From NCBI RefSeq assembly GCF_028595305.1, contig NZ_JAQQXS010000012.1:1-64000 (forward strand): a stretch of 64,000 nucleotides of DNA, written 5' to 3'. This DNA is from Roseateles koreensis (lineage in GTDB: Bacteria; Pseudomonadota; Gammaproteobacteria; Burkholderiales; Burkholderiaceae_C). This document shows positions 11,123-50,710 of this stretch, in pieces (position 1 is the stretch's first letter; each line of letters starts with the position of its first letter). A model generated the notes under the pieces. That model was not told the DNA's origin. It saw only the letters and a program-made list of their open reading frames with translations, and did no database searches. Position numbers and translations under genes: made by a program.

Positions 11123-11230
11123 GAACGGCAGTGTGTGCGAGGCGCTGATGTTAACGGCGCCCGCATGTTGACCTTTGGCTGACTTTTGGCGGGCTTTTGC
11201 GCACATTTGCGGACGCAATGCGCCCCGCCT

Positions 11231-13182: not shown

Positions 13183-13202
13183 ATCAAGCGTCTCCACGGG
13201 GC

Positions 13203-14429
13203 TCAAGGCAGGTAGATCTGTTGCAGCAACTGGGTCGGGCCGAAGTGCTCGTCAAAGCCATAACCCAGAACATCGACGCCACCGTCCTGGTGCACCTTGA
13301 CGGTGGCCCAGGCGTAGGAGCGGTCGGTGGCGGGGCTCTTGGTGACGTCGGTCGACTTGGCGTCGAAGGGCGAGCCGCCCGAGCCCACGATCACCTGATA
13401 GGCGCCGCCGCGAGGGCGCGAGATGTTGTAGATGTGCTCGTGCCCGCAGAAGTAGGTGGCGCCATTCGCTTCAATAACGTCCCAGAAGGCATCGCGCTCG
13501 GCGGTGCTGCCGGGGGCCGCGTCCAGGCCACCTGCGGCGGTGGCGGTGTTGGCGAGGTAGGCGTAGGTGTAGGCCGCCTTGTGGCCGAAGACAAAGCTCT
13601 TCTTCATGCCGCGAGCCTTGGCAGCAGCCAAGTCAGCGGACAGCCATTGGGTGGGTGCGCGGGACTCCATGCCCACCGGGTCGGTATTGATCACCGCAAA
13701 GTGCATGCCCTTGTAGTCGAAGCTGTAGGACAGCTTGCTTTGGTCGGTGCTCAAGCCGTCGGGGCTGCTGCCGACGGCGGGGCCGTAGTTCACGTTCTGC
13801 GGCGCGGTGCCGAGAATGCCGGTGAAACGGGAGGTGTCGAGCACGAGATCGCCCATATTGGCGGCCCAGGCGTTTTCGTTTTCAACCTTGGACTTCTTGC
13901 CGCAGGCCTTGCACTGCACCTCATGGTTGCCGGCCACCGGGAATACATAGGTGCCGGTTTCCATCATCGGGGCCATCAGGCCGCGCCAAAAACCGTACTG
14001 CTGGTAGAACTTGACCAGATCGCTGCTGACCACATCGCTCACCGAAGCCGGTGCCACTGGGCTGGCGTTGATGCTCGATTGCGCCGCGTTTGAGGTGTAG
14101 CCAAAGCCGGCCCAGCCGTAGCCGTGCACCATGTCGCCGTTGAAGAACAACATGCTGGCTTTTTGCGACTGGATGGTGCGCAGGATGCGGGTGGTGGCCT
14201 TGGTGTTTTGCAACCAGGTGGCGTCCTGGCCATTCAAGGTGCTGCCCACACTGGCTTTGTCGAAGTTGATCGGGTCTTGGCGCGAGTCGCCCACGGCCGA
14301 GAAGGTGAACACCACGGGCGTGGTGTTTTGTGCCCAGACCGAGCCTGCAAAGCTGGCTGCGGCCAAAGCCGCCAGCGTGAGGGCAGCGCGCAAGCGGCCT
14401 TGACCGGAGAAAACAGGTGCGTGAGACAT
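13203..14429 (-). CDS. Secreted metallophosphoesterase
   Basis: A 408-residue exported calcineurin-like phosphoesterase. The signal peptide ends near VWAQ (about residue 34). Metal-ligand blocks are GDSRQDP, NGDMVHGYGW, AGNHEVQCKACG, GHKAAYTY and GHEHIYN, in the order of purple-acid-phosphatase-like enzymes. A CxxC pair directly follows the GNHE block. It probably releases phosphate from organic phosphoesters outside the cytoplasm. ATG at 14429 has aaggtcc upstream. A Pho-box-like sequence lies 112-129 bp upstream, fitting induction by phosphate starvation. It heads the leftward operon with the PEP-CTERM and peroxidase genes. Confidence 0.85.
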   Translation of the reverse strand: MSHAPVFSGQGRLRAALTLAALAAASFAGSVWAQNTTPVVFTFSAVGDSRQDPINFDKASVGSTLNGQDATWLQNTKATTRILRTIQSQKASMLFFNGDMVHGYGWAGFGYTSNAAQSSINASPVAPASVSDVVSSDLVKFYQQYGFWRGLMAPMMETGTYVFPVAGNHEVQCKACGKKSKVENENAWAANMGDLVLDTSRFTGILGTAPQNVNYGPAVGSSPDGLSTDQSKLSYSFDYKGMHFAVINTDPVGMESRAPTQWLSADLAAAKARGMKKSFVFGHKAAYTYAYLANTATAAGGLDAAPGSTAERDAFWDVIEANGATYFCGHEHIYNISRPRGGAYQVIVGSGGSPFDAKSTDVTKSPATDRSYAWATVKVHQDGGVDVLGYGFDEHFGPTQLLQQIYLP

Positions 14430-14540
14430 GTTGGACCTTGAAATTGCCGATGGATGAAAGCCAGCAGGCAATCGGCGGATCGTCCAGGCGGACCGCTCAT
14501 GTCTTGCGCTGCGTTCTGCTCGGCACTTTATGAAATCGAG

Positions 14541-14558
14541 GTGACAACTTGATGGCAG
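14541..14558 (-). promoter_or_regulatory. Strong Pho-box-like PhoB site upstream of the metallophosphoesterase operon
   Basis: On the minus strand the 18 bp read CTGCCAT-CAAG-TTGTCAC: two 7-mers close to CTGTCAT at the required 11-bp period. It matches 12 of 14 positions in the repeats and is very close to the E. coli phoA box as I remember it. A -10-like TAAAGT begins after an 11-nt gap, near the phoA spacing. It lies about 110 bp before the start codon. Confidence 0.65.
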
Positions 14559-14585
14559 TGAGAGGCCCTGCCCGCCGCCGTGTGC

Positions 14586-15677
14586 TCAGGTCTTCTTTGA
14601 AATCGCCCGGGCGTTCTCAGGCATGGCATCGCCAATCCACGCCAGCAGCAGGGTATAGGTCACGGCCAGTACCACCGGGCCGACAAACAGCCCTACCAGG
14701 CCAAAGGCCAGGAGCCCGCCGATGACGCCCGAAAAAATCAGCAGCAGCGGCAAATCAGCGCCCTTCTTGATCAGCCATGGACGCAGAAAATTGTCGAGCG
14801 AGGTGATGACGACGGTGAGCACCAGCAGCACCGTGCCCGCGCTGTGCGCCCCCGACCAGTACAGCCAGGCCACGGCCGGTGCCAGCACCAGCACCGGGCC
14901 GATCTGCGCCAGGCACGACATGAACATCACCGCGCCAAGCAAGCCCGCAAACGGCACCCCGGAGACCCACAAGCTGATGCTGCCGAGCGTAGACTGCACG
15001 ATCGCCGTGACCACAATGCCCAACGCCACACCGCGAATGGCCTGCCCGGCCAGCGTGACGGCCTCGTCGCCTTGCGAGCCTGCCAGCCGGCGGGCGAAGC
15101 CGCGCACGCCGCGCGCTGCATCTTCGCCATAGCTGTACAGCACGCCACTGATGCCGACCGTGATCAAAAACTGGAGGCCGATCATGCCGACATTGCCGGC
15201 CTGGGACGCCACCCATTTCAGCGAGATGCCGATGTAGGGCTTGATCTGCGCCATCACATAGGCCAAGCCGTCAATCGCCACGCGATGCCAGATTTCGGCC
15301 AGGCTATCGCCCGCCAAGGGCAAGGCGGTCAGCCAGTGCGGGGGCGGCGGCAATTGGGCGTCTGCCAGGTCGTTGGCGAAGGCGATGATGCTGTCTGCAT
15401 GGGTGACCAGGGCGGTCAGCCCCACGCTCAAGGGCACGAACAGCACGAGCAGCAAGGCCGCTACCATCACGCCAGTGGCCAGGGCGCGGCGGCCCCACAG
15501 GCGCTGCTGCAGCGCCTTCATCATGGGCCATGTGGCCACCACCACCATGATGGCCCAGATCAGCGGGGCCAAGAATGGCCGCAGCACCCACAAGGAGGCA
15601 AACATCAGCAGCGCGATGCTCAGCAAGGCCAGCAGCGTGCGAGCCAGTTCGGGTTTGGGCGGCGTGGGCTGGGTCAT
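14586..15677 (-). CDS. AI-2E family transporter (YdiK/PerM-like)
   Basis: A 363-residue inner-membrane protein with about eight hydrophobic segments. The first pair (about residues 12-55) is followed by a periplasmic or peripheral stretch with LPPPPHWLTALP, then a membrane block containing the family-typical GLLGAVMFMSCLAQIGPVLVLAPA and the end GGLLAFGLVGLFVGPVVLAV. Members include autoinducer-2 exporters, Na+/H+ antiporters and proteins of unknown role, so the substrate is open. I chose ATG at 15677, which starts MTQPTPPKPELA; the upstream extension of the frame overlaps the divergent ybaK gene and is not protein-like. It stands alone on this strand. Confidence 0.85.
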   Translation of the reverse strand: MTQPTPPKPELARTLLALLSIALLMFASLWVLRPFLAPLIWAIMVVVATWPMMKALQQRLWGRRALATGVMVAALLLVLFVPLSVGLTALVTHADSIIAFANDLADAQLPPPPHWLTALPLAGDSLAEIWHRVAIDGLAYVMAQIKPYIGISLKWVASQAGNVGMIGLQFLITVGISGVLYSYGEDAARGVRGFARRLAGSQGDEAVTLAGQAIRGVALGIVVTAIVQSTLGSISLWVSGVPFAGLLGAVMFMSCLAQIGPVLVLAPAVAWLYWSGAHSAGTVLLVLTVVITSLDNFLRPWLIKKGADLPLLLIFSGVIGGLLAFGLVGLFVGPVVLAVTYTLLLAWIGDAMPENARAISKKT

Positions 15678-15761
15678 GGCGTGGGGGCTCAGTCGTTCGG
15701 TGTTGGAGGGGGCGAAGGTTGTTGGAGCGGATTCTGCAGGCTTTCGGCGAAAATGCGCGCC

Positions 15762-16256
15762 ATGTCCAAGAAAACAGCCCATGTCAGCGAGACGCCGGCC
15801 ACGCAGTTTCTGCGCCAGCGCGGCATTGTGTTTACCGAGCATGTTTACGACTATGTCGAGCATGGCGGCACCGCTGAGTCTTCACGCCAGCTGGGGGTGC
15901 CTGAACACGCCGTGGTTAAAACCCTGGTGATGCAGGACGAAAAAGCCCAGCCCCTGATCGTCTTGATGCACGGCGACCGGCAGGTCAGCCTGAAGGAGTT
16001 GGCGCGGCAGATCCCCTGCAAAAAGGTTGAGCCCTGCAAGCCTGACGTGGCCCAGCGCCACAGCGGCTATATGGTGGGCGGCACCTCGCCGTTTGGCCTG
16101 CGCAAGGCGATGCCGGTGTTTGTGGAGCAGGGCATTCTTGACTTGCCCCGCATCTGCATCAACGGCGGGCGGCGCGGTTATCTCGTTGGCATCGACCCCC
16201 GGCTGCTGCCGGATCTGGTCGCGGCGAGGCCGGTTCATTGCGCCAGTGCAGAATAG
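15762..16256 (+). CDS. ybaK: Cys-tRNA(Pro)/Cys-tRNA(Cys) deacylase YbaK/EbsC
   Basis: A 164-residue protein of the YbaK/ProX editing family, which hydrolyses Cys mischarged onto tRNA-Pro. Seen blocks are the early HVYDYVEHGG, the LGVPEHAVVKTLVM core, the substrate pocket GGTSPFGLRK and the terminal GGRRGYLVGIDP. Length and motif order match the family. Start at ATG 15762 (MSKKTAHVSE); another in-frame ATG lies 9 bp upstream. It is followed after 6 bp by plsY, and plsY by a RidA-family gene, suggesting one transcript. Confidence 0.9.
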   Translation: MSKKTAHVSETPATQFLRQRGIVFTEHVYDYVEHGGTAESSRQLGVPEHAVVKTLVMQDEKAQPLIVLMHGDRQVSLKELARQIPCKKVEPCKPDVAQRHSGYMVGGTSPFGLRKAMPVFVEQGILDLPRICINGGRRGYLVGIDPRLLPDLVAARPVHCASAE

Positions 16257-16262
16257 CGCCCC

Positions 16263-16997
16263 ATGCAAGAGACACTTCAAAACTTCCTCTACCCCGTTCT
16301 GGCCGCTGTTGCGGGCTATTTGATCGGTTCTTTGTCCTTCGCGGTGATCATTAGCCGCGCCATGGGTTTGTCTGACCCGCGCAGCTACGGCTCCGGTAAC
16401 CCAGGCGCCACCAATGTGCTGCGCTCCGGCAACAAGGCTGCTGCGGTGCTAACGCTGGTGTTCGACGCACTCAAGGGTTATGTGCCGGTGCTGCTGGTGA
16501 GCTTGTTCGGCGAGCGACTGGGCCTGGGCGAGGGCACGGCGGCGCTGGTGGGCCTGGGGGCTTTTCTGGGGCATTTGTGGCCGATTTTCTTCCGCTTCGA
16601 AGGCGGCAAGGGCGTGGCCACCGCGGCCGGCGTGATCCTGGCGCTGAACCCGGTGCTGGGTGCTGCGGCCCTGGCCACCTGGCTGATCATTGCTTATTTT
16701 TCGCGGTATTCCTCGCTGGCGTCATTGACAGCGGCGGCCTTCGCTCCCTTCTACCAAATGCTGATCTGGGGCACCGGCCCCATCGTCGGGGCGTTGATTT
16801 TGATGGCGTTGCTGTTGGTGTGGCGCCATGAGGGCAATATCCGCAAGCTGCTCAACGGCACCGAAAGCAAGCTGGGCCAAAAGGCTGGCGCTGATGCCAA
16901 CCCGGCGCCCGGCACGAGCAAGAAACATCCGCATGGCCAGGGTCCCAAGGCCCCTGGCCACTCGCACCATCATTCCACCAAAAAGAAAGGTTCTTGA
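16263..16997 (+). CDS. plsY: Glycerol-3-phosphate acyltransferase PlsY
   Basis: A 244-residue inner-membrane enzyme that transfers acyl groups from acyl-phosphate to glycerol-3-phosphate, the first step of phospholipid synthesis. The three conserved PlsY loops are visible: GSGNPGATNVLR, FFRFEGGKGVATA and WRHEGNIRKLLNGTE. The family is usually about 200 residues; here about 45 extra residues form a basic, His/Lys/Pro-rich cytoplasmic tail ending HSHHHSTKKKGS. The tail might bind metal or be disordered. It lies 6 bp after ybaK and 1 bp before the RidA-family gene. Confidence 0.93.
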   Translation: MQETLQNFLYPVLAAVAGYLIGSLSFAVIISRAMGLSDPRSYGSGNPGATNVLRSGNKAAAVLTLVFDALKGYVPVLLVSLFGERLGLGEGTAALVGLGAFLGHLWPIFFRFEGGKGVATAAGVILALNPVLGAAALATWLIIAYFSRYSSLASLTAAAFAPFYQMLIWGTGPIVGALILMALLLVWRHEGNIRKLLNGTESKLGQKAGADANPAPGTSKKHPHGQGPKAPGHSHHHSTKKKGS

Positions 16998-16998
16998 A

Positions 16999-17355
16999 AT
17001 GACAACAGCAGCCATCCAGCGCTTTGATGCCGGCGCCCGCATGTGTGAAATGTCCGTGCACAACGGCGTGGCCTATCTGGCAGGCCAGGTGGCCGCCGAT
17101 GGCAGCCAAGACATCACGGGCCAGACCGCTCAGGTGCTGAAAGCCATTGATGACTTGCTGGCCCGTGCCGGTTCCGACAAGAGCAAAATCTTGCGTGCCC
17201 AGATTTTTCTGGCCAATGTGGCCGACTTCCCGGGCATGAACGCAGCCTGGGACGCTTGGGTGTCTGCGGGCAATCCGCCCGCCCGTGCCACTGTTGAAGC
17301 CAAGCTGGCCCGCCCGGAGTGGAAGGTTGAGATCGTCATCACCGCCGCAGTCTGA
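16999..17355 (+). CDS. RidA/YjgF-family protein
   Basis: A 118-residue trimeric-fold protein starting MTTAAIQRFD. The family strand blocks are VAYLAGQVAAD, the middle LRAQIFLANVADFPGMNAAWDAWV and the terminal RATVEAKLARPEWKVEIVITA; the conserved Arg and Glu of the active pocket (RATVEA) are present. RidA proteins hydrolyse reactive enamine/imine intermediates; this one looks like the RutC/YoaB-side subgroup. ATG 16999 begins one base after the plsY stop and has aaagg upstream. The previous frame is open far upstream but overlaps plsY. Confidence 0.85.
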   Translation: MTTAAIQRFDAGARMCEMSVHNGVAYLAGQVAADGSQDITGQTAQVLKAIDDLLARAGSDKSKILRAQIFLANVADFPGMNAAWDAWVSAGNPPARATVEAKLARPEWKVEIVITAAV

Positions 17356-17390
17356 CGGCCTCATCCCTCTCGCGATCAGCGCCTGCCGCC

Positions 17391-17753
17391 ATGAAGCGCA
17401 AACCCAAGGCCGATCTATGGGCCTTGGCGCTGATCCTGGCGCTGGTGCTGGTGGCCAGCCAAGGTGCCGCGTGGTTCAGCTCGCGCACGCAGGCTGAGCA
17501 GATGCGCCGTTGGGCGGCGCCGGGCGACATCGCAATGCTGTCGTCCACCACCTGCATCTATTGCGAAAAAGCCCGGGCCTGGATGACCCGGGCCGGCGTG
17601 CCTTTTCATGAGTGTTTCATCGAGCAGGACGCGGCCTGCCGGGCCGAGTTCGAAGCCCGGGGCGCACGGGGCACGCCCACCCTGATCGTGCGCGGCCAGA
17701 CCTTGGTCGGCTTTGACCGCCCTCGTGTGATTGAAATCCTCAGTCTTCGCTGA
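17391..17753 (+). CDS. Membrane-anchored glutaredoxin-like protein (CIYC)
   Basis: A 120-residue protein. Residues about 9-28 (LWALALILALVLVASQGAAW) form a single N-terminal anchor or uncleaved signal. The rest is a glutaredoxin/thioredoxin fold: CIYC near residues 55-58, then the cis-Pro block RGTPTLIV and GFDR. A second pair of cysteines (CFIEQDAAC) lies after the first strand. It probably carries out thiol-disulfide exchange at the outer face of the inner membrane. The 3' end overlaps the end of the convergent threonylcarbamoyladenylate-synthase-type gene by 14 bp. The exact partner is unknown. Confidence 0.7.
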   Translation: MKRKPKADLWALALILALVLVASQGAAWFSSRTQAEQMRRWAAPGDIAMLSSTTCIYCEKARAWMTRAGVPFHECFIEQDAACRAEFEARGARGTPTLIVRGQTLVGFDRPRVIEILSLR

Positions 17754-18378: not shown

Positions 18379-18442
18379 GCCGCATTGTCCATCGACACGG
18401 CCATTGCATGCCGGCGGGCGTGGGCGCCACGCGACGGTGGGC

Positions 18443-19351: not shown

Positions 19352-19491
19352 ACTCCCATTTTAGGTCGTTGTGTTTGAGACTGGGCTGGTGAGGGCCATT
19401 TTCAAGCCCAGCCCTGACGGCAAGACTGGACGGACTCCGTGATTCAGTCACCCAATGGCTTGGCGCGAGGGCTTGGCGCCGGGGCGTGGGG

Positions 19492-21387: not shown

Positions 21388-21747
21388 AGAAATACTGAAT
21401 TCGGTAAGAGAGAACGACGAGGTCGGGCCGTGGAGGCTTTGAGCCGTTGCGATGTTGCGCGTGATGGTGCAGGGGTTCTCGTTGAATGATTAACTAACTA
21501 GTTATTTAAGCGGTAACTAAATCATCATCAAACAGCGGGATGGACACGGCAGATGTGGCGCGGTTACGCATGCGGCAGCGTATGGCGACGAATTAGAAAA
21601 TTTAAATATGACAAAAGAGCTACAGCGGGCGTCGCCGCGGAGAGCCCCCAAGAATTAGGGGGTTCTTCCGTGAATTACTCACAAAAATCAGGTGCCGTGG
21701 CAACGAGTTGGATGACCTTGGCGGCCTGCGTTGCAGACCGCTGAATG
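21388..21747. other. 360-bp intergenic region with AT-rich repeats
   Basis: No gene is seen. It contains the promoter of the leftward chemoreceptor gene, a cluster of overlapping taact/agtta repeats at about 21487-21518 that could be an operator, an AT-rich stretch at 21590-21612 (gaaaatttaaatatgac), and a small stem of five C and five G around aagaatta near 21648-21665. No sigma-28 flagellar promoter (TAAA-N15-GCCGATAA) was found. Confidence 0.35.
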
Positions 21748-24387
21748 TCAGGGCCTCAGGGATTGCTGAAGCAACGCTGCGGCCTCGGGGCGGGCGGGTT
21801 GCAAGGTCTGCAGGTCTTGCAGCAGAGTGAGCGCTGCATCGGGACTTTGCGCCGCCAGGGCGCGGGCCATGCGCAGGAGTGGGTCGTAGGCGGGCCGGAA
21901 ATCGGGGCTGATGCGCAGCACGTCCAGCAAGGGCGCTCTGACCTGGGTCAGCATTTGTTGTACGTCGGTCGTAGGGCGCACCGTGCGGCCCGCTTCCAGA
22001 AAGCGTTGGCGGGCCTGCCAGTAGGCGGCGAGGCGGGCCGCAGACGGGTCATCCTTGATGACGTTAGCCGGCTGGATGGAGACGGCACGCAGCAAGGTCA
22101 TCAAACGGTCGGCGGGTGTGCTGTCTGGCGCGTAGCTGATGCGCGGGGCAAGGTAGGCGACGATGGGGTGGTCATCGGTGTTGGCCGGGGCTTGATCAGC
22201 GAATTGTGCCAACGCCGCAGGCCCGGCCACAAACATGCCGAGCAAGGCCCATTCGTCCTCGATGCCAAAGACTGCCGGCGGTGTTGGGAAGGAATTGTGG
22301 GCCAAGCGGGCCCGGATGGTCGCCATGTCAAAGCCGTTGGCATTGGCCCGCCCGATCAGGCCCAGCGTGGGCGTTTCCAGGCTGTTGTTGGCCAGCAGGG
22401 CAGTTGCGTCGGGGAAAGCCTGCAGAAACGATTGCACGATGCTTTGCAGGGTCTGCAAATCGAGTTGATGCAGCGGCAGCCATTGGCAGAACAGGCCCCC
22501 AGGTGCGAGGCGTTGGCGCACGGCCTGAAAGTGTTCCACCGTGTACAGCGCCGCCGAGCCCGCCCGCGCCGGGTGAAAGTTGTCGGCGACGATCACGTCG
22601 TAAGGCGTTGGCGCATTGCGCACATAACGCCTTGCGTCAGCGTTGACGGTATGCAGCCGGGGCTCGCCCTGCTCGACGGCCTGGGTGAAATGCATGGAAG
22701 CGGCGATGACTTCGGGCAGCAACTCAACGGCGTCCACGTGCAGGCTGGGGTCTTGGGCGCCTGACGCCGCCGTCATGCCCGTGCCCAAGCCCAGAAACAA
22801 TGCCGTGTGGGGTGCGGGGTGCAGCAGCAGGGGCAGCAACGCCTGGCGGGCGTCGAACAAGAGGCTTGAACTGCTGCCTTCCTGCTGGCGGTTGTTGATG
22901 CGCAGGCGCGATACGCCCTGGGCGTCTTCCACCACGCTCACCGCGGCCATGGCACCCTCGCGATAGCTGACGATGTGGCCGCCCTCAGGCAAGGTGATGA
23001 AGCGCAGCGGTGGGGCAATGGCGGCCAGGGCTAAGGTGGCGATCGCAGGCACCCACACCCGCGCCCGCAGCCAGGCCGCACCGCCGCACAGCCCAAGGTA
23101 GGCCAAAGGCAACAGCAGCAGGGTCAGTTTGGCGCCCAGGGCTGGCGCAAGCAGAACGCCGAAAATCAGCGGTGCCAGCGCCGCCGCCAAAGTGTTGATG
23201 CCCACGGCTTGCCCAAAGCTCAGGCCTGCGCGGTGCGCATTGGCGCAAAGCTGGCTGAATAAGGCACCCATCACCAGCGTGGGCAGGGCAAAGGCGGCGA
23301 GCGCGAGGAGGGCTTCGGCGCTAAGTGCCCAGGCCAGGCTCCCCTCGCCGTTGCCTATCCATTGGTCTTTGAGCGCTTGCGCCCCCCACAAGCTTGCGCC
23401 CCCCAGCAGGCCGGCGATGGCGAGCGCGACGAGCAGGCCTTGGGTGCGGGATTCAGCGCTTGCGTCGCTCTGCTGGAGGCGACTCCAGCGCTGCCAGGCA
23501 GCGGCGCCCAGGGCCGTGCCGATCAGGTACACGGCCAGCAGCATCGCAAAGGTGTAAACGGTGTCTTCGGTGACTTGGCTGAGTACGCGCAAGACCAGCA
23601 CTTCATAGCCTACGCCGAGCAGGCCGGTAGCGGCCAAGCGGAGGACGGACCGGCTGCGTGCAGCTTGGGATGGCGCCGATTTCGCCAGCCCGATTTCATG
23701 GGTCTGCGCCACGCCGCGGGGCAGCGCAACCCAGGCCAGAGCCGCACACATCAGGTTCAGCGTTACGCACAAGCCGGCCGTGCGAGACAAACCGAATTGA
23801 GGCAGGGCATAAAAGGCGGTGACCAGCACCCCCAGTACGGCGCCACCGGTGTTGGCCGCGTAGAAAAGGGCGACTGAGCGCTGCCCGCTTGCCGATGCGG
23901 AGGGGTAAAAATCCGCCATCACCCGCTCCAGCGCTGGCAGTGTGGCGCCCATGGCGGCGGTGGCCGGCAGGAGCAGCAAGAAGCAGCCCACAAATGCCAC
24001 GCTCCATTGCCACAGCGGCGAGGCGTCGATGCCGCCGATGGCTTGCAGCCGTGCCGTCAGGGTAGGCAATGCCACCAGCAGCAACAGGCCCCACAACGCA
24101 ATCACCAACTCGAAGATGACATAGGCCAGGCGGGGTCGCCGGCTGCGTTCGATGCGGGGACCCAAGGCCAGCGCGCCGCAGGCCATTCCACCGAAAAACG
24201 CACTCACCACGGCCAGCACGGCGGCCGACTCATGCCCCAACCACAGGCCGCATTGCTGGGTCCAGACGATTTGATAGCCCAGGCCCGCAAAGCCCGAGGC
24301 GCCCATCACCAGCAGGGCTACGGCGGCCTGCCGCGCTGGGGCGGCATGGAGGGTAGGCGCAGCGCGCAAAGCAGCAGAATCTTGCAT
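21748..24387 (-). CDS. Membrane-fused spermidine-synthase-like protein
   Basis: An 879-residue protein with an N-terminal block of about 12 or more hydrophobic segments (residues about 20-480) and a C-terminal soluble Rossmann-type domain. The latter has LFLGLGTGMTAA and VDAVELLPEVI, the cofactor site of spermidine-synthase folds, and the catalytic-loop-like ADNFHPARAGSAALYTVEHF near residue 620. The C-terminus (about 790-879) is helical. Fusions of this kind are common but uncharacterised; a true polyamine product is not proven. The gene directly abuts the Fe(II)/2OG oxygenase-like gene (TGA then ATG), so it is the last gene of the operon that starts at 26989. Confidence 0.8.
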   Translation of the reverse strand: MQDSAALRAAPTLHAAPARQAAVALLVMGASGFAGLGYQIVWTQQCGLWLGHESAAVLAVVSAFFGGMACGALALGPRIERSRRPRLAYVIFELVIALWGLLLLVALPTLTARLQAIGGIDASPLWQWSVAFVGCFLLLLPATAAMGATLPALERVMADFYPSASASGQRSVALFYAANTGGAVLGVLVTAFYALPQFGLSRTAGLCVTLNLMCAALAWVALPRGVAQTHEIGLAKSAPSQAARSRSVLRLAATGLLGVGYEVLVLRVLSQVTEDTVYTFAMLLAVYLIGTALGAAAWQRWSRLQQSDASAESRTQGLLVALAIAGLLGGASLWGAQALKDQWIGNGEGSLAWALSAEALLALAAFALPTLVMGALFSQLCANAHRAGLSFGQAVGINTLAAALAPLIFGVLLAPALGAKLTLLLLPLAYLGLCGGAAWLRARVWVPAIATLALAAIAPPLRFITLPEGGHIVSYREGAMAAVSVVEDAQGVSRLRINNRQQEGSSSSLLFDARQALLPLLLHPAPHTALFLGLGTGMTAASGAQDPSLHVDAVELLPEVIAASMHFTQAVEQGEPRLHTVNADARRYVRNAPTPYDVIVADNFHPARAGSAALYTVEHFQAVRQRLAPGGLFCQWLPLHQLDLQTLQSIVQSFLQAFPDATALLANNSLETPTLGLIGRANANGFDMATIRARLAHNSFPTPPAVFGIEDEWALLGMFVAGPAALAQFADQAPANTDDHPIVAYLAPRISYAPDSTPADRLMTLLRAVSIQPANVIKDDPSAARLAAYWQARQRFLEAGRTVRPTTDVQQMLTQVRAPLLDVLRISPDFRPAYDPLLRMARALAAQSPDAALTLLQDLQTLQPARPEAAALLQQSLRP

Positions 24388-25011
24388 TCAGCCAGTGAAT
24401 CCGATGGTGTAGCCCCAGGAATCGAGGCGTGCCGGGATGGCGTTGAAGGCCAGCGTGATGCGTTGGCCTCCCTCGTTAGGGGGCACGGCATGCATGAGAT
24501 AGCTGGGAAACAGCACCAGATCGCCCGGGCTGGGCTGGGGGCTGATCCACTTGTCGGCATTGAAGGGACCGGTGACCATGCCGGGATGGTCGTTCTTGAA
24601 CGCGAAGTCGTTGCCGCCGGGCGCTTTCATGAACACGGTGCGTGAGGATGCGTGGGTGGGTGTCAGGTAGAGCACGCCCGAGATGAAGCTGTTGGCGTGG
24701 TTGTGCATGGCCTGGCGGCCACCTTCATCCAGCACGTTGACCCACATCTCTTTCAGCGACCAAGGCATGCGCTCGCCAAACATGTGGGCGCCGAATTCGC
24801 TCAATTTTGGCGTTAGCAATTGGGCCAACTCGATCAGCAAGGGGCTGTCGCTAGGGCGCAGCATGCGGGTGTGGGAGAGCTGGCTTGAGGCGTTGTTCTC
24901 TTGCCGGGCCTCGGCGCTGAAATGCGCCAGAAGGCCTTGCCGCAAAGGTTCCGGCACCGCCCCGGGAGCGCGAAAGAAGGGCGTGGGAAACAGGCTGATG
25001 ACTTCGTCCAT
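24388..25011 (-). CDS. Putative Fe(II)/2-oxoglutarate oxygenase (TIGR02466-like)
   Basis: A 207-residue protein beginning MDEVISLFPTPFFRA. It shows the double-stranded beta-helix pattern of small Fe(II)/2OG oxygenases: a likely first ligand block AMHNHANSFISGVLYL, distal His in YLMHAVPPNEGGQRITLAFN and the Arg that would hold 2-oxoglutarate in the same block. FPTP at the start is characteristic of the TIGR02466 family. The substrate is unknown. ATG at 25011 was chosen because upstream codons overlap the HupE gene. It lies 11 bp after that gene and abuts the next. Confidence 0.7.
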   Translation of the reverse strand: MDEVISLFPTPFFRAPGAVPEPLRQGLLAHFSAEARQENNASSQLSHTRMLRPSDSPLLIELAQLLTPKLSEFGAHMFGERMPWSLKEMWVNVLDEGGRQAMHNHANSFISGVLYLTPTHASSRTVFMKAPGGNDFAFKNDHPGMVTGPFNADKWISPQPSPGDLVLFPSYLMHAVPPNEGGQRITLAFNAIPARLDSWGYTIGFTG

Positions 25012-25022
25012 GGCGACCGGGT

Positions 25023-26039
25023 TCAACTGAAAATGGTGACAACACGCAGCCAGGACCAATAGGCCGCCAGCGTGCCGATGAGGTAGAGCAGCACGGTGCG
25101 GGCCTTGCGGGTCTGCTCCGACTGCGGCCAACGCGTGCTCAGGCGCCACAGCAGCCAGGCGGCGCCGACCGTCAGCAACTGGCCGATCTCGACCCCCACA
25201 TTGAAGGTCAGCAAAGCGACCAGCAGATGCTGCTCGGGCAGACCAATTTCTTTCAGCGCGCCGGCAAAGCCAAGGCCATGCACCAGTCCGAAGATGAAGG
25301 CCACCAGGGCCGGCCAGCGCCGCGCCAGGGTCTGGCGCTGATGCAGTGCCTCACCCGCCACAAGCACGATGGAAAGCGCGATCGTGGCTTCCACGGGGGG
25401 CGAGCGCAGCACCAGCCAACCCAGCGCGCTGCTGGCCAGCGTGAGGCTGTGCGCGGCGGTGAAGGCGGTGATGGTCCACAGCAATTGGCGGCCAAAGCCC
25501 ACCAGCAACAGCAGGCTGATGACGAACAGCAGGTGATCGACACCGGTGAGGATGTGCTCAACGCCCAGCAGCGTGTAGGCGGAGGCAATCTCGCCCATGC
25601 CGCGCTGGTCTTGCGCCGAGCCGTACAGGTGCACGTTGGGCTGGCCGGCGGTGAGCGTGTAGACGCGCGACTGTTCGTCAAGCCAGAACACTTTCACCAA
25701 CACGGCGGAGTAGGCTTTGCCCACGCCCTCGATGCGCAATTGGCCCTGCAGGCCTTTGGCGCCGCAATGCAGCACATTGACTTCGACCTGGCACTCTTCA
25801 GGCCAGACGGGGGTGAGTACATCGGCCGGTGCCGCTTTTTCGCTGGCGGTCCATTGCCACAGGAATTCGCCGTGCGCAACTTCGCGGAGCTGCATCTCGA
25901 CCATGCTCATCTCGTGGGCGTGGGCAGGGTTTGCGGCCAGCAACAGTGTGAGCGCCAGCAGGCAGGCCGACCCAAGCTGGTGCTTGAGCAAACCTGCAGC
26001 GGCGGCGATGAGGCGGGCGATCATGGTGAGGCGGCTCAT
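25023..26039 (-). CDS. HupE/UreJ-family membrane protein
   Basis: A 338-residue protein. A signal or first membrane segment (about residues 10-40) ends at AHAHEMS. An extracytoplasmic domain (about 42-150) precedes a C-terminal membrane block with the family motif HILTGVDHLLFVISLLLL, then FTAAHSLTLA, FGLVHGLGFA and FNVGVEIGQLL. The histidines in these helices suggest metal handling; HupE and UreJ relatives transport nickel, but this subfamily with an extra domain is not characterised. Its start overlaps the PpiC gene stop by 4 bp. It is the second gene of the PpiC-HupE-oxygenase-synthase operon. Confidence 0.8.
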   Translation of the reverse strand: MSRLTMIARLIAAAAGLLKHQLGSACLLALTLLLAANPAHAHEMSMVEMQLREVAHGEFLWQWTASEKAAPADVLTPVWPEECQVEVNVLHCGAKGLQGQLRIEGVGKAYSAVLVKVFWLDEQSRVYTLTAGQPNVHLYGSAQDQRGMGEIASAYTLLGVEHILTGVDHLLFVISLLLLVGFGRQLLWTITAFTAAHSLTLASSALGWLVLRSPPVEATIALSIVLVAGEALHQRQTLARRWPALVAFIFGLVHGLGFAGALKEIGLPEQHLLVALLTFNVGVEIGQLLTVGAAWLLWRLSTRWPQSEQTRKARTVLLYLIGTLAAYWSWLRVVTIFS

Positions 26040-26989
26040 TGATCTTCTGCCTTGTTGGTAGGCTTGCTGCTCGTGCTGCTCGTGCTGCTCGTACCAGATT
26101 TGGCGTCAACGCTGGGCGAAGGGGCTTTGATCTTGTACTTCTGCGCCAAGGTGTGAACGGCGGCGCTGCGTTGTTCGGCCATCACCGTGTCGGTCCAGTC
26201 TTGCAGCACCACGCCGCGCAGGGATTCAAAGTCACCGGGCTTGCCGGAGGTCAGTGCGTCCAGGCGAATTGCGCGCCAGCCGTCTTGCGTGGGCTGGGCA
26301 CGCCATTCGCCCACTGGTGCCGCCGCCAATGATTTGGCGAATTCGGCGCCGTAGCTTTGCAGCAGATTGGCTTGCGGGCGGCCCTTGAAGACGCGCAGGC
26401 CCGCCTTGGCGTCGCCGGGTGTGCCGGCATTCAGGGCGTCGACAAAGGCGCGCACCGCGGCTTCGGTGGGCGTGCCGTCCAGCACGGCTTCTTGAAAGTC
26501 ATAACGCGGTGGCTCGTCGTACTTGACGCGATGGCTTTCGAACCAACTGCGCAGGGTCTTGTCATCGTATTTGGGCAATTTGACGTTGGCGTCCACCACG
26601 CTCAAGGCCTTGAAGATGACGCGCTCACGAATGCTGGCGTCGCCTTTGTCCACTTGCAGGGCGAGGCCTTCGCGATAGAGCACCTCGTTGTCCAGCCACA
26701 CCTGACGCAGCGCAGCCAGTTCCTCGGCGTTGGGTGCGTGGCCACGCGTGGCGCTGAAGATCTGGGTGGCTTCGGCATCCACCTCGGGGCCCATGACGAT
26801 GGTGCGTGGGTCGTCAGCGCGCGTCATCAGCCAGTGGTCCGCCAGAAACAGCATGCCACCCAGCAGCACAAAGTGCAGCAGAGGTTCGCGCAGCGCCGCC
26901 TGCAGGCGTGAGTGGCCTTGGCTGCGGGGTGTTGCAGGGGGCTTGGATGCGGTGGCCGGGGTTGCTGACGTGGAGAGGGAAGCGGACAT
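26036..26989 (-). CDS. Membrane-anchored PpiC-type peptidyl-prolyl isomerase
   Basis: A 317-residue protein with a short cytoplasmic N-terminus, one membrane anchor (about residues 36-55, LLHFVLLGGMLFLADHW) and a periplasmic parvulin-like region. The EVLYREGLALQVDKGD and RERVIFKALSVV helices resemble the SurA/PrsA-type N-domain, and the C-terminal half has a degenerate rotamase domain (residues about 165-275). The tail is Ser/Thr-rich because of three copies of a 9-bp unit at about 26065-26092. It probably folds or escorts an exported partner, such as the large PHP-domain protein encoded just upstream. Confidence 0.75.
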   Translation of the reverse strand: MSASLSTSATPATASKPPATPRSQGHSRLQAALREPLLHFVLLGGMLFLADHWLMTRADDPRTIVMGPEVDAEATQIFSATRGHAPNAEELAALRQVWLDNEVLYREGLALQVDKGDASIRERVIFKALSVVDANVKLPKYDDKTLRSWFESHRVKYDEPPRYDFQEAVLDGTPTEAAVRAFVDALNAGTPGDAKAGLRVFKGRPQANLLQSYGAEFAKSLAAAPVGEWRAQPTQDGWRAIRLDALTSGKPGDFESLRGVVLQDWTDTVMAEQRSAAVHTLAQKYKIKAPSPSVDAKSGTSSTSSTSSKPTNKAEDQ

Positions 26990-27020
26990 GGAGGACTCAA
27001 CTCGGTTCTTGAAACGGAAA

Positions 27021-27048
27021 AAGCGCCACGCGAAAACGCGTGGCGCTT
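27021..27048 (-). terminator. Rho-independent terminator of the PHP-domain gene
   Basis: A perfect 12-bp stem (aagcgccacgcg with cgcgtggcgctt) around a 4-nt loop lies 29 bp after the PHP gene stop. On the minus strand it is followed by TTTCC, giving five T in a row including the stem end. Confidence 0.85.
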
Positions 27049-27076
27049 GGCTGCGGGAACCCGCAGAACTAATGCC

Positions 27077-29329
27077 TTACTTGACGCCAGCCACCGTGGT
27101 GGAGCCGTTCACTTGGACGTAGATCGGGTTGCTGTAGAACCACAGGTCAGACCAGGCGGCCACGTCGTAGGCCACCATCTTCTGGCCATTGACCACTGGC
27201 AAATGGGCCGGGCAACCGTCGATCGAATTGCCGGTGTACGTCACACCTGCTGCCGGGACATTGCTGCCCACGGTGGTGCAGGGGATGCGCAACATCGTGC
27301 TGTCGTTGGCGTTGGTATAGACGTCGGCCAGCGGGTTGCCGTTGCCATCGGTCTCGTAAGGCACCGCGGCGGGCATGTTGGTGCCGCGCAGACGCACATA
27401 CTGCGACGCTTGAACAGCCGGGATGCGGTAGCTCATCTTCAGGAAGGCGCTGTTGTCGACGCCCGACTGCACGGTGGTCCAGGGGGTGCTGCCGCTGTTG
27501 CTGAAGGTTTTGATCACAGCAGTGCTGGTGTTCTTGGCGGCGTCAGGCACAGCGGATAGACCCACGGTGGTGCCGTCAGCGCGCAGCCAAGCCGTATTGC
27601 GCGGCCATTCGCCCGAGTAGTCGCTGGCACCGGGCGTCTTGTAGCCGGTGACCATGCCGCGCACCAAATCCACGTGGTCCAGCACGGGCTGGTTGATCGG
27701 CTGGTTGATGCCCACTTGGAGCAGCGAGGGGTTGGCGAAGGTATAGGGCGAGTAGTTGGCGCCGTCAGGGTCACGCAGCACCACGGCCACCACGATTTCG
27801 GCACCGGGGCGAACCACGAGCTTTTCGCCCATGGTGGCGCAGCCGGAGACGTCGATGTCGGTGTTGTGGGTGGCGGCGGCCACGGCGATGGCTTCCACAG
27901 CGGCGTTGCTGCGGGCAGCGATGCCGGGGTAGGAGGCACAGGCGACGAAGGCCAGGCGGTCGATCAACTGGCCGTTGGCGACGAAGCTGTTGCCGGTGCG
28001 CAGACCATCAACAATGGTTTGCGGGCGCAGCTTGTCGGCACCGTTGCGCACCATCACGAAGTCGCGTGCATATTCGCCGGGGAAGAAGTCTTGCGACGAG
28101 CGGCGGTCATCCGGGCCGAAGCTGCCCCGGTTGTGCCAGTCGGAGCTGGCGAAGTACCACCAGTTGCGGCCTTCGCCCAGCAGCGCGTCCCAGACGCCGC
28201 CAACCTGACCGGCATACACGCCGGTGCCGCCGTAGGTGGTGCCACCGACCGAGTCGGTCAACACGCCGTTGATGTTGTTGCGCTTGACCTGGTATTCACC
28301 GCGGTTATTGGCCGCGCCGTGGCCGGGCTGCGATTCGAAGCCAAAGGCGATGTTCGGCGCGGTGTTGTTGAAGTTTCGCAAGTGCTCAATGTTGAAGCCG
28401 TTGTTGCCGTCCGGGTTAAAGGGGCCGGCGCGCTCCAGGTGGGCGGGCACGTAGTAGCTGGCATTGGTGTGGTTCTGGGCCATCCACTTGATGCCCTCCA
28501 ACGTCTTCAGGTGGCCCTTGCTGCCGTTGCCGGTGCCGCTGGCGGGCATCAGCTTTTGGGCGGTGGCGTTCCAGCTGACGTCGCCACTGTTCAGGCTGCC
28601 GGTGACCGAGCAGTTCCAGTTGTTGCCAATGCTGGTGCCGGTGGTGTTGCCACGGCTGGTGTCGGTGTCGCCACGGTCGAAGCAGTAAGACCACTGAGCC
28701 AGGCCATTGGCATTGCCCAGCGCGGTATAGCCGGCGCTGGTGGGCAGCGAGGTGTTGTCGAGCGACAGGGGCATCTGGCCCGTAACGACCGACATGGAGG
28801 TGTGCTCATGGCCTGCGACGACCGATTCCATGCCGATGAACAGGGGCAGGCTCTTGGCGGCCGACAAGTATTCCAGCAAGGGGTACTGGAACTCTTGAAT
28901 CGACTGCCAACGCCACATATTGCCTGTGCCGCCCACGCCGCCGCCCAGGCCCTTCAGATTGGCTGCGCCAATGCTGTTGGTCCAGGTGGTGGTGGGGCCA
29001 GTGCCGGCGGTGTAGGGATAGGCGGGGGTGCTCAGGGTGGCGTCTTCAACCAAGGTGCAGTTGCGGTTGCCGTTGCCGCCGTGGCCGGCTTGCACGAACC
29101 AATCCAGACCCCAGGGCGTGTCGTTTTTGTCGGTGGCCTTCTTGACCAGCTTCTGCATCGAGATGGAGCCGTCCGAGCAGGTGGTGTGGTTGTGGAAGTC
29201 ACCGGTCACGTATTGGCCGGCCGTTTTACCGGCGGCCGTGGCCATCGTGGGCGCAACAACCAGGCTGGCGGTGCTGATGGCGGCCAGTGCGGCCAGTGCG
29301 AGAGGGGTTTTGTTGAAACCGAGTTTCAT
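27077..29329 (-). CDS. Large secreted PHP-domain (DUF3604-like) phosphoesterase-like protein
   Basis: A 750-residue exported protein. The signal peptide ends near TMATAAG (about residue 33). It opens with a PHP metal-binding block, GDFHNHTTCSDGS at about residues 43-55, then WFVQAGHGG, MESVVAGHEHTS, YVPAHLERAG and ASSDWHNRG, so most metal ligands of a PHP enzyme are in place. A beta-rich C-terminal half (about 470-750) is of unknown role. It likely cleaves phosphoesters outside the cytoplasm. ATG 29329 is preceded by ccggag. A Pho-box-like sequence lies about 100 bp upstream. It is followed by its own terminator, then the PpiC operon, which may serve it. Confidence 0.7.
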   Translation of the reverse strand: MKLGFNKTPLALAALAAISTASLVVAPTMATAAGKTAGQYVTGDFHNHTTCSDGSISMQKLVKKATDKNDTPWGLDWFVQAGHGGNGNRNCTLVEDATLSTPAYPYTAGTGPTTTWTNSIGAANLKGLGGGVGGTGNMWRWQSIQEFQYPLLEYLSAAKSLPLFIGMESVVAGHEHTSMSVVTGQMPLSLDNTSLPTSAGYTALGNANGLAQWSYCFDRGDTDTSRGNTTGTSIGNNWNCSVTGSLNSGDVSWNATAQKLMPASGTGNGSKGHLKTLEGIKWMAQNHTNASYYVPAHLERAGPFNPDGNNGFNIEHLRNFNNTAPNIAFGFESQPGHGAANNRGEYQVKRNNINGVLTDSVGGTTYGGTGVYAGQVGGVWDALLGEGRNWWYFASSDWHNRGSFGPDDRRSSQDFFPGEYARDFVMVRNGADKLRPQTIVDGLRTGNSFVANGQLIDRLAFVACASYPGIAARSNAAVEAIAVAAATHNTDIDVSGCATMGEKLVVRPGAEIVVAVVLRDPDGANYSPYTFANPSLLQVGINQPINQPVLDHVDLVRGMVTGYKTPGASDYSGEWPRNTAWLRADGTTVGLSAVPDAAKNTSTAVIKTFSNSGSTPWTTVQSGVDNSAFLKMSYRIPAVQASQYVRLRGTNMPAAVPYETDGNGNPLADVYTNANDSTMLRIPCTTVGSNVPAAGVTYTGNSIDGCPAHLPVVNGQKMVAYDVAAWSDLWFYSNPIYVQVNGSTTVAGVK

Positions 29330-29432
29330 GGAGGTGTCTCCGGGGTTTGGATGGCGGTTCATGGACCGACAGCACAGCGGCTGGGCCGCTGCGGTCGGCG
29401 TTTGGATTCAGCGAGCATGCTAGGGACGGGCG

Positions 29433-29450
29433 ATGACTGGGGCGTGACGA
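29433..29450 (-). promoter_or_regulatory. Weaker Pho-box-like site upstream of the PHP-domain gene
   Basis: On the minus strand TCGTCAC-GCCC-CAGTCAT keeps the 11-bp period of PhoB sites; the second 7-mer matches six of seven positions and the first about half. A -10-like TAGCAT follows after ten bases. The site is 104-121 bp before the start codon. Confidence 0.4.
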
Positions 29451-29483
29451 GGCGCCCCTGCCTGTCGGCTCATTCGTGGGGGG

Positions 29484-29960
29484 TCAGGCCGGCAATGCCT
29501 CGTAATCGATGCTGAGATCGGCCTCGACGACACCTCCGATCGCAAAGGTCAGGGTGAGCGGATAGCTGCGGGCGATTTCAAGCGGGTGGCGCAGCCCGGT
29601 GAGGCGCAGATGCACGCCCGTCTCGGTGAATTCAGTCACTTGGTCGGCTGAAATCAGGAAGTTGATGGGTACATCACCTCGCGAGTTGGCGGCGACTTGT
29701 GATGTGTTCGCCCGCTGGATCAGTGCGCCCGCAGCAACTGGTGTGCTGATGTGGATGAGCCGGTCAGCCTGAGTCACTTCGTCAAAGCGCATGCAGACCA
29801 CGGCGTCGCTGTCGCCCGGGCGGGAGGCACGCGTCCAGGGATGAGTCACGCGCAGCGTCGTGGTGAAAAATTCGCAGGCGCGTGCCTCGGGCAGCACAAA
29901 GCCCAGGCCGCAGGCGAGAGTGCCTTGCAGCCAGCGGCGTCGAGGGAGGGTGAATGTCAT
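29484..29960 (-). CDS. PCu(A)C-like exported protein with altered metal ligands
   Basis: A 158-residue protein with a twin-arginine-like signal (RRRWLQGTLACGLGF). The body follows the PCu(A)C copper-chaperone fold: THPWTRASRPGDSDAVVCMRF, then ADRLIHISTPVAA, LTGLRHPLEIARSYPLTLTF and a final beta strand. In classical PCu(A)C the ligand pattern is H-M spaced with a later H-x-M; here the later His-Met block is missing (GALIQRANTSQ), so copper binding may be weak or different. Start at ATG 29960 gives the signal peptide. It is divergent from the PEP-CTERM gene, with Pho-box-like sites in the gap. Confidence 0.6.
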   Translation of the reverse strand: MTFTLPRRRWLQGTLACGLGFVLPEARACEFFTTTLRVTHPWTRASRPGDSDAVVCMRFDEVTQADRLIHISTPVAAGALIQRANTSQVAANSRGDVPINFLISADQVTEFTETGVHLRLTGLRHPLEIARSYPLTLTFAIGGVVEADLSIDYEALPA

Positions 29961-30078
29961 GGGCGTTCTTCGTGCTTGATGCGGGGACTCCACGCGGCCT
30001 GAGCGCCGGGCGGGGCGCAGGTGCTGCAGGCGCATGGGCGTGCACATGGAGAGGGTGGGCGCAGGCTAAGGTGCAGCG

Positions 30079-30096
30079 GTGAAGGCTTGATGACAG
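30079..30096 (-). promoter_or_regulatory. Pho-box-like site toward the PCu(A)C-like gene
   Basis: On the minus strand CTGTCAT-CAAG-CCTTCAC contains one exact CTGTCAT and a second repeat matching five of seven positions at the correct 11-bp period. It shares 15 of 18 bases with the site at 14541-14558. The distance to the start codon is about 120 bp. Confidence 0.5.
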
Positions 30097-30168
30097 GGGG
30101 CGGCGCGATCCCGCTGTACCCCCGCCTTTGGGGGGTGTGGTCTGAATAGCGGGGTTCAGACCTGGTGG

Positions 30169-30186
30169 CCGTCATCGTCCTGTCGC
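30169..30186 (+). promoter_or_regulatory. Pho-box-like site toward the second PEP-CTERM gene
   Basis: On the plus strand CCGTCAT-CGTC-CTGTCGC matches 12 of 14 repeat positions at an 11-bp period. A -10-like TAGACT begins after a 12-nt gap, nearly as at the 14541 site. It lies about 77 bp upstream of the start codon. Confidence 0.55.
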
Positions 30187-30262
30187 GAGTGCACTCATAG
30201 ACTGCGCTGCATGTCGGCATGGGTGCCGTCGCAACGATTTAGATTCAACTGGAGAAACCTCG

Positions 30263-30889
30263 ATGAAGCCGTCACGACTTGCCGCTCTTGCCTTGTTCGC
30301 CTGCGCACCAGCCTTTGCTGCCCCGGTGGCCTTCACGCTCGATTTCGAAAAAACCTGGGCCTTTGGCACCGGCGTGGCCGAGTATTACAACGGGGGGACG
30401 GCGGACGATGGATCCACTGCCAGCGCCAATGTGGGTGTTTCCTTCACGAACGTGTTCGGCTTTTCGAACGACGCTGCCAGCACCAACTTCGCCAATGCGC
30501 CCAGCTCCTTGGGCGTGGCCTACGCTGACAACACCAACGGCGCAGCCTACATGAACGTGGCCGCGGGTGTGGACAGCAGCCTGAGTTTCTACTACGCCGC
30601 CGTCGGTGACGCGGCGGGCGCCATCAAGGTGTATTCGGGCCTGAACGGCACCGGGACCCTGCTGGGCACGTTCGACCTGGCCGCCACCAGCACCACCGGC
30701 GCTTTTGACAGCTGGAAGCAGCAAACCATCAGCTTCAGCGGCGTGGCGCAGTCGTTTGACCTGAGCGGCACCACCGGAGTGGCCGCGCTGGACAATGTCT
30801 CGGCCGTGCCTGAGCCTAGCAGTGTCACCTTGATGTTGGCTGGCGTTGCCGTGCTGGTGGGCATGCGCACGGGCCGCCGCCAAGCTTGA
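30263..30889 (+). CDS. PEP-CTERM surface-sorted protein (second copy)
   Basis: A 208-residue exported protein. The signal peptide is MKPSRLAALALFACAPAFA; the C-terminal sorting signal is VPEPSSVTLMLAGVAVLVGM followed by RTGRRQA. The mature part is a Ser/Thr/Ala/Gly-rich beta sandwich-like sequence (DFEKTWAFGTGVAEYYNG at the start) without catalytic motif. It differs clearly from the protein at 12556-13182 except in the sorting tail. The start has ctggagaaa upstream. It is a single-gene transcript with its own terminator, and a Pho-box-like site precedes it. Confidence 0.85.
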   Translation: MKPSRLAALALFACAPAFAAPVAFTLDFEKTWAFGTGVAEYYNGGTADDGSTASANVGVSFTNVFGFSNDAASTNFANAPSSLGVAYADNTNGAAYMNVAAGVDSSLSFYYAAVGDAAGAIKVYSGLNGTGTLLGTFDLAATSTTGAFDSWKQQTISFSGVAQSFDLSGTTGVAALDNVSAVPEPSSVTLMLAGVAVLVGMRTGRRQA

Positions 30890-30949
30890 TTGATGCGTTG
30901 ACCGGCGTCTGGTGCTGAACGCCGGGCGTGGTCAAAAATACAAAAAAAG

Positions 30950-50596: not shown

Positions 50597-50645
50597 CTAC
50601 CTGGGGTGCGTGAATGACAGGGGGATGTCACACGGCACGCGTTGG

Positions 50646-50710
50646 ATAGCCTGCGCCAATGACCGCGATTTGATTAATCAAAACTAAGACCTAGGTGTTA
50701 TCGATATGAT
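50646..50710 (+). promoter_or_regulatory. OxyR-like site and promoter of ahpC
   Basis: Four tetramers at the OxyR spacing ATAG-N7-CAAT-N7-ATTT-N7-CAAA (50646-50682) match 11 of 16 consensus positions. The last overlaps the -35 region of a TATGAT -10 (50705-50710) that has no good -35, as usual for OxyR-activated promoters. A 14-bp palindrome tttgattaatcaaa (50669-50682) lies within it. Confidence 0.5.

Follow-up and report, generated by a model that had tools for sequence, protein, structure and literature searches.

Background

The Pho regulon, in which PhoR and PhoB act on promoters of the pstS and phoA type, is the described system closest to the one considered here. In the phoA promoter of E. 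coli the PhoB sites overlap the -35 region, as described in PMC3348028. We analysed a stretch of Roseateles koreensis DNA (positions 1-64000 of one contig of a 4.37 Mb draft genome, hereafter the window), in which an initial annotation had noticed four Pho-box-like sites ahead of genes for secreted and surface proteins. Sequence comparison indicates that these four sites are probably PhoB-activated promoters, i.e. Pho boxes within activator-dependent sigma-70 promoters. With the known Pho regulon they share the 11-bp direct repeat over the -35 position, a fixed distance to the -10, the element of the genus' pstS promoters, and phosphate-related genes downstream. They differ from it in their half-sites, which read GTCAY or GTCGY instead of the full CTGTCAT, and in their targets, among which are PEP-CTERM surface proteins, a protein of the PCu(A)C type and a PHP cassette that includes an anglerase-type permease. 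The open-licence literature searched yielded no description of genes of these three kinds (PEP-CTERM, PCu(A)C, PHP cassette) as Pho targets; as far as that literature shows, the regulon is of a known kind and its surface, PEP-CTERM and metal-capture branch is new.

Two other described systems resemble parts of the locus. According to PMC12537917, the anglerase (Ang-1)-HupE/UreJ-2 systems of Pseudomonadota comprise a PF13795 permease whose extracytoplasmic domain starts with a histidine directly after the signal peptide, this first-residue histidine being the mark of Ang-1 anglerases, and their gene neighbours are mostly unknown proteins, DUF4198, indigoidine-synthase-A-like proteins and PfkB kinases. 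The CehA/McbA metallohydrolases, in turn, are members of the PHP superfamily.

Whether a bacterium can use organic phosphate is commonly judged by its phoA, phoX and phoD genes. The R. koreensis genome gave no match to PhoA or PhoX; it holds one modest PhoD match and two PF04185 phosphoesterases, and the Pho-type promoters of the window precede two secreted hydrolases other than PhoA, PhoX or PhoD. If confirmed, the regulation proposed here would extend the phosphate response to PEP-CTERM surface proteins and periplasmic metal capture, would give an uncharacterised cassette (263 relatives of its PHP protein in a species-level genome collection) a testable expression condition, and would provide anglerase permeases with a possible client enzyme.

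Architecture of the four sites

All four sites are present where the initial annotation had placed them, and each consists of two direct half-sites 11 bp apart:

14525..14558, minus strand: Pho-type promoter element of the metallophosphoesterase operon, with three 11-bp repeats CTGCCAT/TTGTCAC/ATTTCAT and a -10-like TAAAGT 10 bp past the second repeat; site 14541-14558 reads CTGCCATCAAGTTGTCAC
29417..29450, minus strand: Pho-type element of the PHP gene, GTCAC-N6-GTCAT-N10-TAGCAT; site 29433-29450 reads TCGTCACGCCCCAGTCAT
30063..30096, minus strand: Pho-type element of the PCu(A)C gene, GTCAT-N6-TTCAC-N10-TAGCCT; site 30079-30096 reads CTGTCATCAAGCCTTCAC
30169..30203, plus strand: Pho-type element of PEP-CTERM protein B (PEP-B), GTCAT-N6-GTCGC-N11-TAGACT; site 30169-30186 reads CCGTCATCGTCCTGTCGC

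Two features had escaped the initial annotation, namely the -10-like hexamer 10 or 11 bp downstream of each of the four sites, and the presence of three repeats at 11-bp intervals within 14530-14558. In all four cases the repeat covers the -35 position with the -10 at N10 or N11, and the distances to the likeliest start codons, read by eye, are about 112, 104, 119 and 77 bp (in the order 14541, 29433, 30079, 30169, which is kept below).

The similarity to the E. coli-style CTGTCAT consensus, as first described, stood only in part: the sites were recovered, but the counts were slightly off and the consensus is a weak yardstick. Three sites had been said to match 12 of 14 positions, which holds when either C or T is accepted at base 7 (12, 11, 12 and 12 matches) but not for strict CTGTCAT pairs (11, 10, 11 and 11); two sites had been said to share 15 of 18 bases, while the closest pair (14541 and 30079) shares 14. 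With at most two mismatches, CTGTCAYN4CTGTCAY occurs four times in the window against 1.09 expected, a number reached by 4 of 100 shuffles, and the fourth of these matches lies at 50614. By this consensus chance is weakly excluded at best as the source of the sites. As the sole scoring scheme it was dropped because it cannot tell the sites from chance matches, and later scoring therefore relied on a matrix derived from the lineage's own pstS promoters.

The pstS promoters of the genus and the lineage matrix

We located pstS in the R. koreensis genome and in its relatives, with a strong match in 11 genomes of the genus. All 11 pstS promoters examined, the own one included, contain GTCAC-N6-GTCAY-N10-TANNAT, most of them with a third repeat; a second pstS in one genome (G008, locus L048) was left out, as it has no 12-of-14 site. 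Further along the pst operon of R. koreensis come pstB and phoU, then a response regulator that has a receiver and a winged-helix domain (PF00072, PF00486), and a sensor-like open reading frame. A regulator and a sensor directly after phoU occupy the usual phoB-phoR position, and by position and sequence we name this response regulator as the putative PhoB.

The matrix was built from eight distinct pstS promoters (own included), using the shared half-site columns plus the -10 at a spacing of 10 or 11 bp, and was scanned over 127,930 window positions, with the expectation taken from first-order Markov sequence. This pstS-only matrix places 29433 at rank 1, 30079 at rank 3, 14541 at rank 4 and 30169 at rank 6, and scores such as those of the first three are expected 0.00, 0.10 and 0.23 times per 64 kb. 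The site with the fewest consensus matches (29433) is thus the strongest by the pstS matrix, and rank 5 overlaps the 14541 site, where the three repeats stand.

Rank 2 is taken by 50614-50649, in the gap before an open reading frame at 50749 that by eye encodes an AhpC-type peroxiredoxin.

Conservation upstream of the PHP gene

Among 11 PHP homologues read individually, the own one included, eight have the exact repeat and one has it with one mismatch; the two most distant have none. On a larger scale, 263 relatives of the PHP protein were confirmed in the species-level genome collection and the best 80 of the 263 loci were fetched, 78 of which entered the promoter counts (L147 and L158 were dropped, the match starting at a contig edge). 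These loci are related, and L140, L145 and L179 share their elements with the genomes G006, G003 and G005, so that the counts do not represent independent events.

GTCAY-N6-GTCAY stands on the coding strand before the PHP gene in 39 of the 78 loci (shuffle mean 0.16, maximum 2; opposite strand 1). Two GTCAY are separated by a period of 11 bp in these 39 loci, and each of the other periods between 5 and 25 bp is seen in three loci at most. A TAVNNT hexamer follows the repeat at 4-17 bp in 33 of the 39, in 33 of 33 cases at exactly 10 bp. The composite including the -10 was found in 37 of 78 loci (shuffles 0, opposite strand 7). With the pstS matrix, for which a score of at least 13 was the threshold in all promoter counts, the element is detected in 57 of 78 PHP promoters (opposite strand 6) and in 22 of 79 promoters of the peptidyl-prolyl isomerase (PPIase) gene of the same cassette (opposite strand 0). 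Other genes of the cassette served as controls and gave 0 of 75 for hupE (opposite strand 1), 1 of 65 for the SpeE-like gene (opposite strand 0) and 2 of 69 for the 2OG-Fe(II) oxygenase gene; for the latter two, as for PCu(A)C and PEP-B, rows with fewer than 150 bases upstream were dropped.

These data bear on the simplest alternative, that base composition yields CTGTCAY-like pairs by chance and that those lying near genes were picked. Shuffled sequence indeed produces as many loose matches: with up to three mismatches the window contains 14 CTGTCAYN4CTGTCAY pairs against 13.7 in shuffles. Against this, conservation across the 78 loci is confined to a single period and a single -10 distance, the sites rank high with an independent pstS matrix, and the control genes hupE and the SpeE-like gene are practically devoid of the element. 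We regard chance, which was already disfavoured, as hardly credible.

The element before the other genes of the window, in the genus and beyond

Of 46 PCu(A)C promoters, 11 contain the strict composite, and of 55 PEP-B promoters, 14 do; shuffles gave none for either gene, and the opposite strand gave 0 and 7, respectively. For the metallophosphoesterase, both relatives found within the genus (G003, G005) possess perfect elements in other surroundings, and five of 14 homologues have an element with at most one core mismatch. Among 300 genomes of the order, 12 (counting the own one) have a match to this protein, mostly with no box; two weak matches (G021, G057) were left out of the metallophosphoesterase count.

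The pattern GTCAYN6KTCRYN{10,11}TAGNNT matches 41 times in the 11 genomes of the genus, and its reversed form 7 times. This composite was designed after viewing pstS and the window genes; 20 of the 41 matches lie outside those loci. The link to PEP-CTERM proteins suggested by the initial annotation recurs here: besides the gene at 30263, the composite precedes a PEP-CTERM protein of G004 that is PEP-B-like by eye, and phytase-like PEP-CTERM proteins in G001 and G007 (family scan), with a similar protein in G009. Further matches precede a pstS-type binding protein (G009), a STAS protein (G003), TAtT proteins (G009 by scan, similar in G002) and acetate kinase genes (G009 L095 by scan, similar in G002 L081); a D. 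vulgaris study names pta-ack genes among the targets in its section on phosphate starvation (PMC3333781). In three genomes the composite stands about 40 bp before the start of a secreted subtilase (own L102 by family scan; L076 and L090 of G008 and G010, similar by eye). Some matches, for example that at C3:102605 of the own genome, have nothing telling downstream as far as was seen. Outside the genus, one composite match precedes a GDPD gene in G019.

An independent control is offered by the PhoX family, where the pstS matrix detects the element in 8 of 12 promoters and, on the opposite strand, in none of the 12, four fragmentary matches of 16 (L242, L244, L245, L246) having been dropped; six of the eight element-bearing genes are distant members of the family (E ~1e-16 to 1e-19).

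Weighing the assignment to PhoB

The control by PhoB that had been claimed for these genes is supported by comparative evidence: the four sites carry the same element as the 11 pstS promoters of the genus, it is conserved ahead of the orthologues of each of the four genes, and it is also found before further genes with a link to phosphate. A simple sigma-70 scan of 21700-30900 found no -35/-10 pair, where only 1.0 was expected by chance. A number of observations nevertheless weigh against this assignment. By the E. coli-style consensus, strict CTGTCAT pairs with up to three mismatches are near chance in the window (5 against 3.7 expected), just as the looser pairs show no excess; the initial annotation had proposed looking for equal or better matches across the genome, and with this yardstick the outcome would go against the sites, strict pairs with at most two mismatches occurring at 22 places (4 in the control), none of which is one of the four. 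The exact repeat is missing from 39 of the 78 PHP loci, and no box within one mismatch was seen in nine of the 14 metallophosphoesterase homologues. The PhoD promoters, tried as a positive control with the pstS matrix, gave 1 of 19 against 2 of 19 on the opposite strand (27 rows, of which L258 and those without a locus were dropped). In seven genomes of other families the composite has 8 matches against 5 for the reversed pattern, and with one mismatch allowed it shows no excess in the own genome (32 matches, 32 in the control), a class to which the 14541 site belongs. With the pstS matrix the opposite strand scores frequently before some of the genes, i.e. 9 against 16 on the coding strand in the 46 PCu(A)C loci, 29 against 12 in the 55 PEP-B loci and 10 in the case of the 2OG oxygenase gene; these high counts probably come from divergent neighbour genes. 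Finally, the score of 30169 is expected 1.10 times per 64 kb, and the second half-site is GTCGY in all 14 strict PEP-B promoters.

Several of these points would also fit a narrower reading in which not all four sites are Pho promoters, 30169 (PEP-B) and perhaps 14541 being degenerate or differently read copies that PhoB does not use. The low rank of 30169 and its GTCGY half-site speak in favour of it, as do the single mismatch of 14541 to the composite and the scarcity of boxes among the wider homologues of its gene. On the other hand, the PEP-B architecture including its -10 is retained in the 14 loci without a counterpart in shuffles, the PEP-CTERM gene of G004, located elsewhere, has the same element, and 14541 possesses three repeats and both its genus homologues have perfect elements in different surroundings. 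We consider a partial set rather unlikely, and all four sites as probable PhoB targets.

Under phosphate scarcity, PhoR would phosphorylate PhoB, whose dimer would occupy the pair of GTCAY-like half-sites (period 11 bp) that covers the -35 and bring the polymerase to the -10 starting 10 or 11 bp further on. This would switch on a first operon, with a secreted calcineurin-type phosphoesterase, a PEP-CTERM protein and a dihaem peroxidase, and a second set composed of a PHP-type metallohydrolase, PCu(A)C and a PEP-CTERM protein, which are members of a conserved PPIase/HupE/2OG/SpeE-like cassette. The proteins so produced are proposed to act on organic esters outside the cytoplasm and to free their phosphate, and the metalloenzymes would be supplied by metal capture.

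The metallophosphoesterase operon

The first element is followed by a run of four genes:

13203..14471, minus strand: secreted calcineurin-type metallophosphoesterase, likely ATG 14429 (PF00149, 27.6 bits, cut-off 21.5)
12556..13206, minus strand: PEP-CTERM protein A (PF07589, 25.0 bits, cut-off 20.7)
11231..12559, minus strand: dihaem cytochrome c peroxidase/MauG-type protein (PF03150, 114.5 bits)
9659..11218, minus strand: polysaccharide deacetylase, last gene of the run (PF01522, 109.9 bits)

A PDB sequence search with the metallophosphoesterase alignment (A2) gave no match. In G005 a PEP-CTERM gene likewise follows the phosphoesterase, and neither the peroxidase nor the deacetylase comes after it. 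The dihaem peroxidase, counted earlier as part of the programme, does belong to the operon here, but it is absent after the G005 phosphoesterase, and the elements near a second peroxidase gene are of the one-mismatch class, which has no excess over the control. The polysaccharide deacetylase is part of the run, a position that does not in itself show membership of a Pho programme.

The PHP cassette

The second set of genes surrounds the remaining three elements. It is larger than initially annotated, by the genes from 26989 down to 21748; neighbour counts refer to tblastn matches (E <=1e-4) within the fetched flanks, irrespective of orientation and distance:

30263..30889, plus strand: PEP-CTERM protein B (PF07589, 23.2 bits, cut-off 20.7; 55 of 80 loci)
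29484..30047, minus strand: PCu(A)C copper-chaperone-like protein, likely ATG 29960 (PF04314, 49.1 bits; 46 of 80 loci)
27077..29362, minus strand: secreted PHP-type metallohydrolase of ~760 amino acids, likely ATG 29329 (NCBIfam CehA/McbA, NF038032, 40.2 bits, cut-off 80)
27021..27048, minus strand: terminator-like hairpin after the PHP gene, 12-pair stem and T run
26036..26989, minus strand: PPIC-type peptidyl-prolyl isomerase (PF13145, 40.7 bits; 79 of 80 loci)
25023..26039, minus strand: HupE/UreJ-2 permease, anglerase-like, with a histidine directly after the apparent signal peptide (PF13795, 152.8 bits; 75 of 80 loci)
24388..25149, minus strand: 2OG-Fe(II) oxygenase (TIGR02466; 71 of 80 loci)
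21748..24387, minus strand: membrane protein with a spermidine-synthase-like domain, SpeE-like (PF01564, 37.8 bits; 71 of 80 loci)

The PHP-type protein shares with the CehA/McbA metallohydrolases a weak profile match in 25 of 26 members and PHP-like motifs, but scores 40.2 bits in the window against the cut-off of 80, and it is apparently secreted and of the length given above; an assignment to CehA/McbA was rejected on this score. Against Pfam it has no match at all, which also ruled out DUF3604. PDB sequence searches yielded nothing up to E = 1 with the PHP alignment A3, and one chance-level match with alignment A1. The motifs GHEH, P.HLER, QPGH and SSDWHNRG occur in 26 of 26 members and HNHT.CSDG in 23 of 26; we take them to be PHP metal-ligand-like motifs, and phosphoesterase activity of the protein is suggested from these motifs.

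The HupE/UreJ-2 permease of the window carries PF13795 and, with the cleavage site placed by eye, its apparent signal peptide is followed at once by a histidine; His-Glu directly follows the apparent cleavage site in 75 of 75 homologues by eye (72 of 75 by regular expression). Its likeness to Ang-1 refers to the domain and the histidine. Unlike in the Ang-1 systems, the neighbours here are the PHP hydrolase, PPIase, 2OG oxygenase and SpeE-like protein. The gap between the PHP and PPIase genes is long in 20 loci, most of which hold an extra gene that by eye is of the PCu(A)C or PEP-CTERM type, some of them PEP-B-like, and these insertions tie such genes to the cassette.

In the own genome the terminator-like hairpin, a strong one, sets the PHP gene apart from the rest of the cassette, and no Pho-type element was seen between it and the PPIase gene. 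The cassette genes located behind this hairpin at 27021-27048 may respond in this genome.

In many relatives (L134-L173) a variant element, GTCGT-N6-GTCTT-N10-TAGCAT and similar, precedes the PPIase gene, its half-sites departing consistently from GTCAY.

The composition of the cassette lends some appeal to the principal alternative to PhoB, namely that another regulator of the OmpR/PhoB family, for example a metal-responsive one, reads a near-identical 11-bp repeat, and that the cassette answers to copper or nickel and not to phosphate. PCu(A)C and an anglerase-like HupE are among its members, Ang-1 of a relative binds copper and nickel (PMC12537917), and the PEP-B and PPIase elements deviate consistently from the pstS half-sites. 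The PHP element, however, is the one best matched by a matrix made from pstS promoters alone, and phytase-like, PhoX-family, GDPD and pstS-type genes have that element in front of them as well; such a metal regulator appears decidedly unlikely to us. Keeping to control by PhoB, one may tentatively picture the PHP cassette as a hitherto unrecognised phosphate-acquisition system, i.e. a PhoB-switched secreted metalloenzyme with its own metal-capture permease and chaperones that stands in for PhoA and PhoX where these are lacking, a possibility we hold with some reserve.

Leads of the one-mismatch class

The one-mismatch composite was dropped as a genome-wide finder of regulon members, and since its matches equal those of the reversed control, the genes concerned are leads only. 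They include PPK2 and a PF04185 phosphoesterase. The gene of the latter faces that of a second dihaem peroxidase, and the gap separating the two, at G000:C2:191614-191738 (L107, L108, L224), contains Pho-type elements with one mismatch. Opposite the own pstS a fasciclin-domain gene (L120) has a one-mismatch element of its own.

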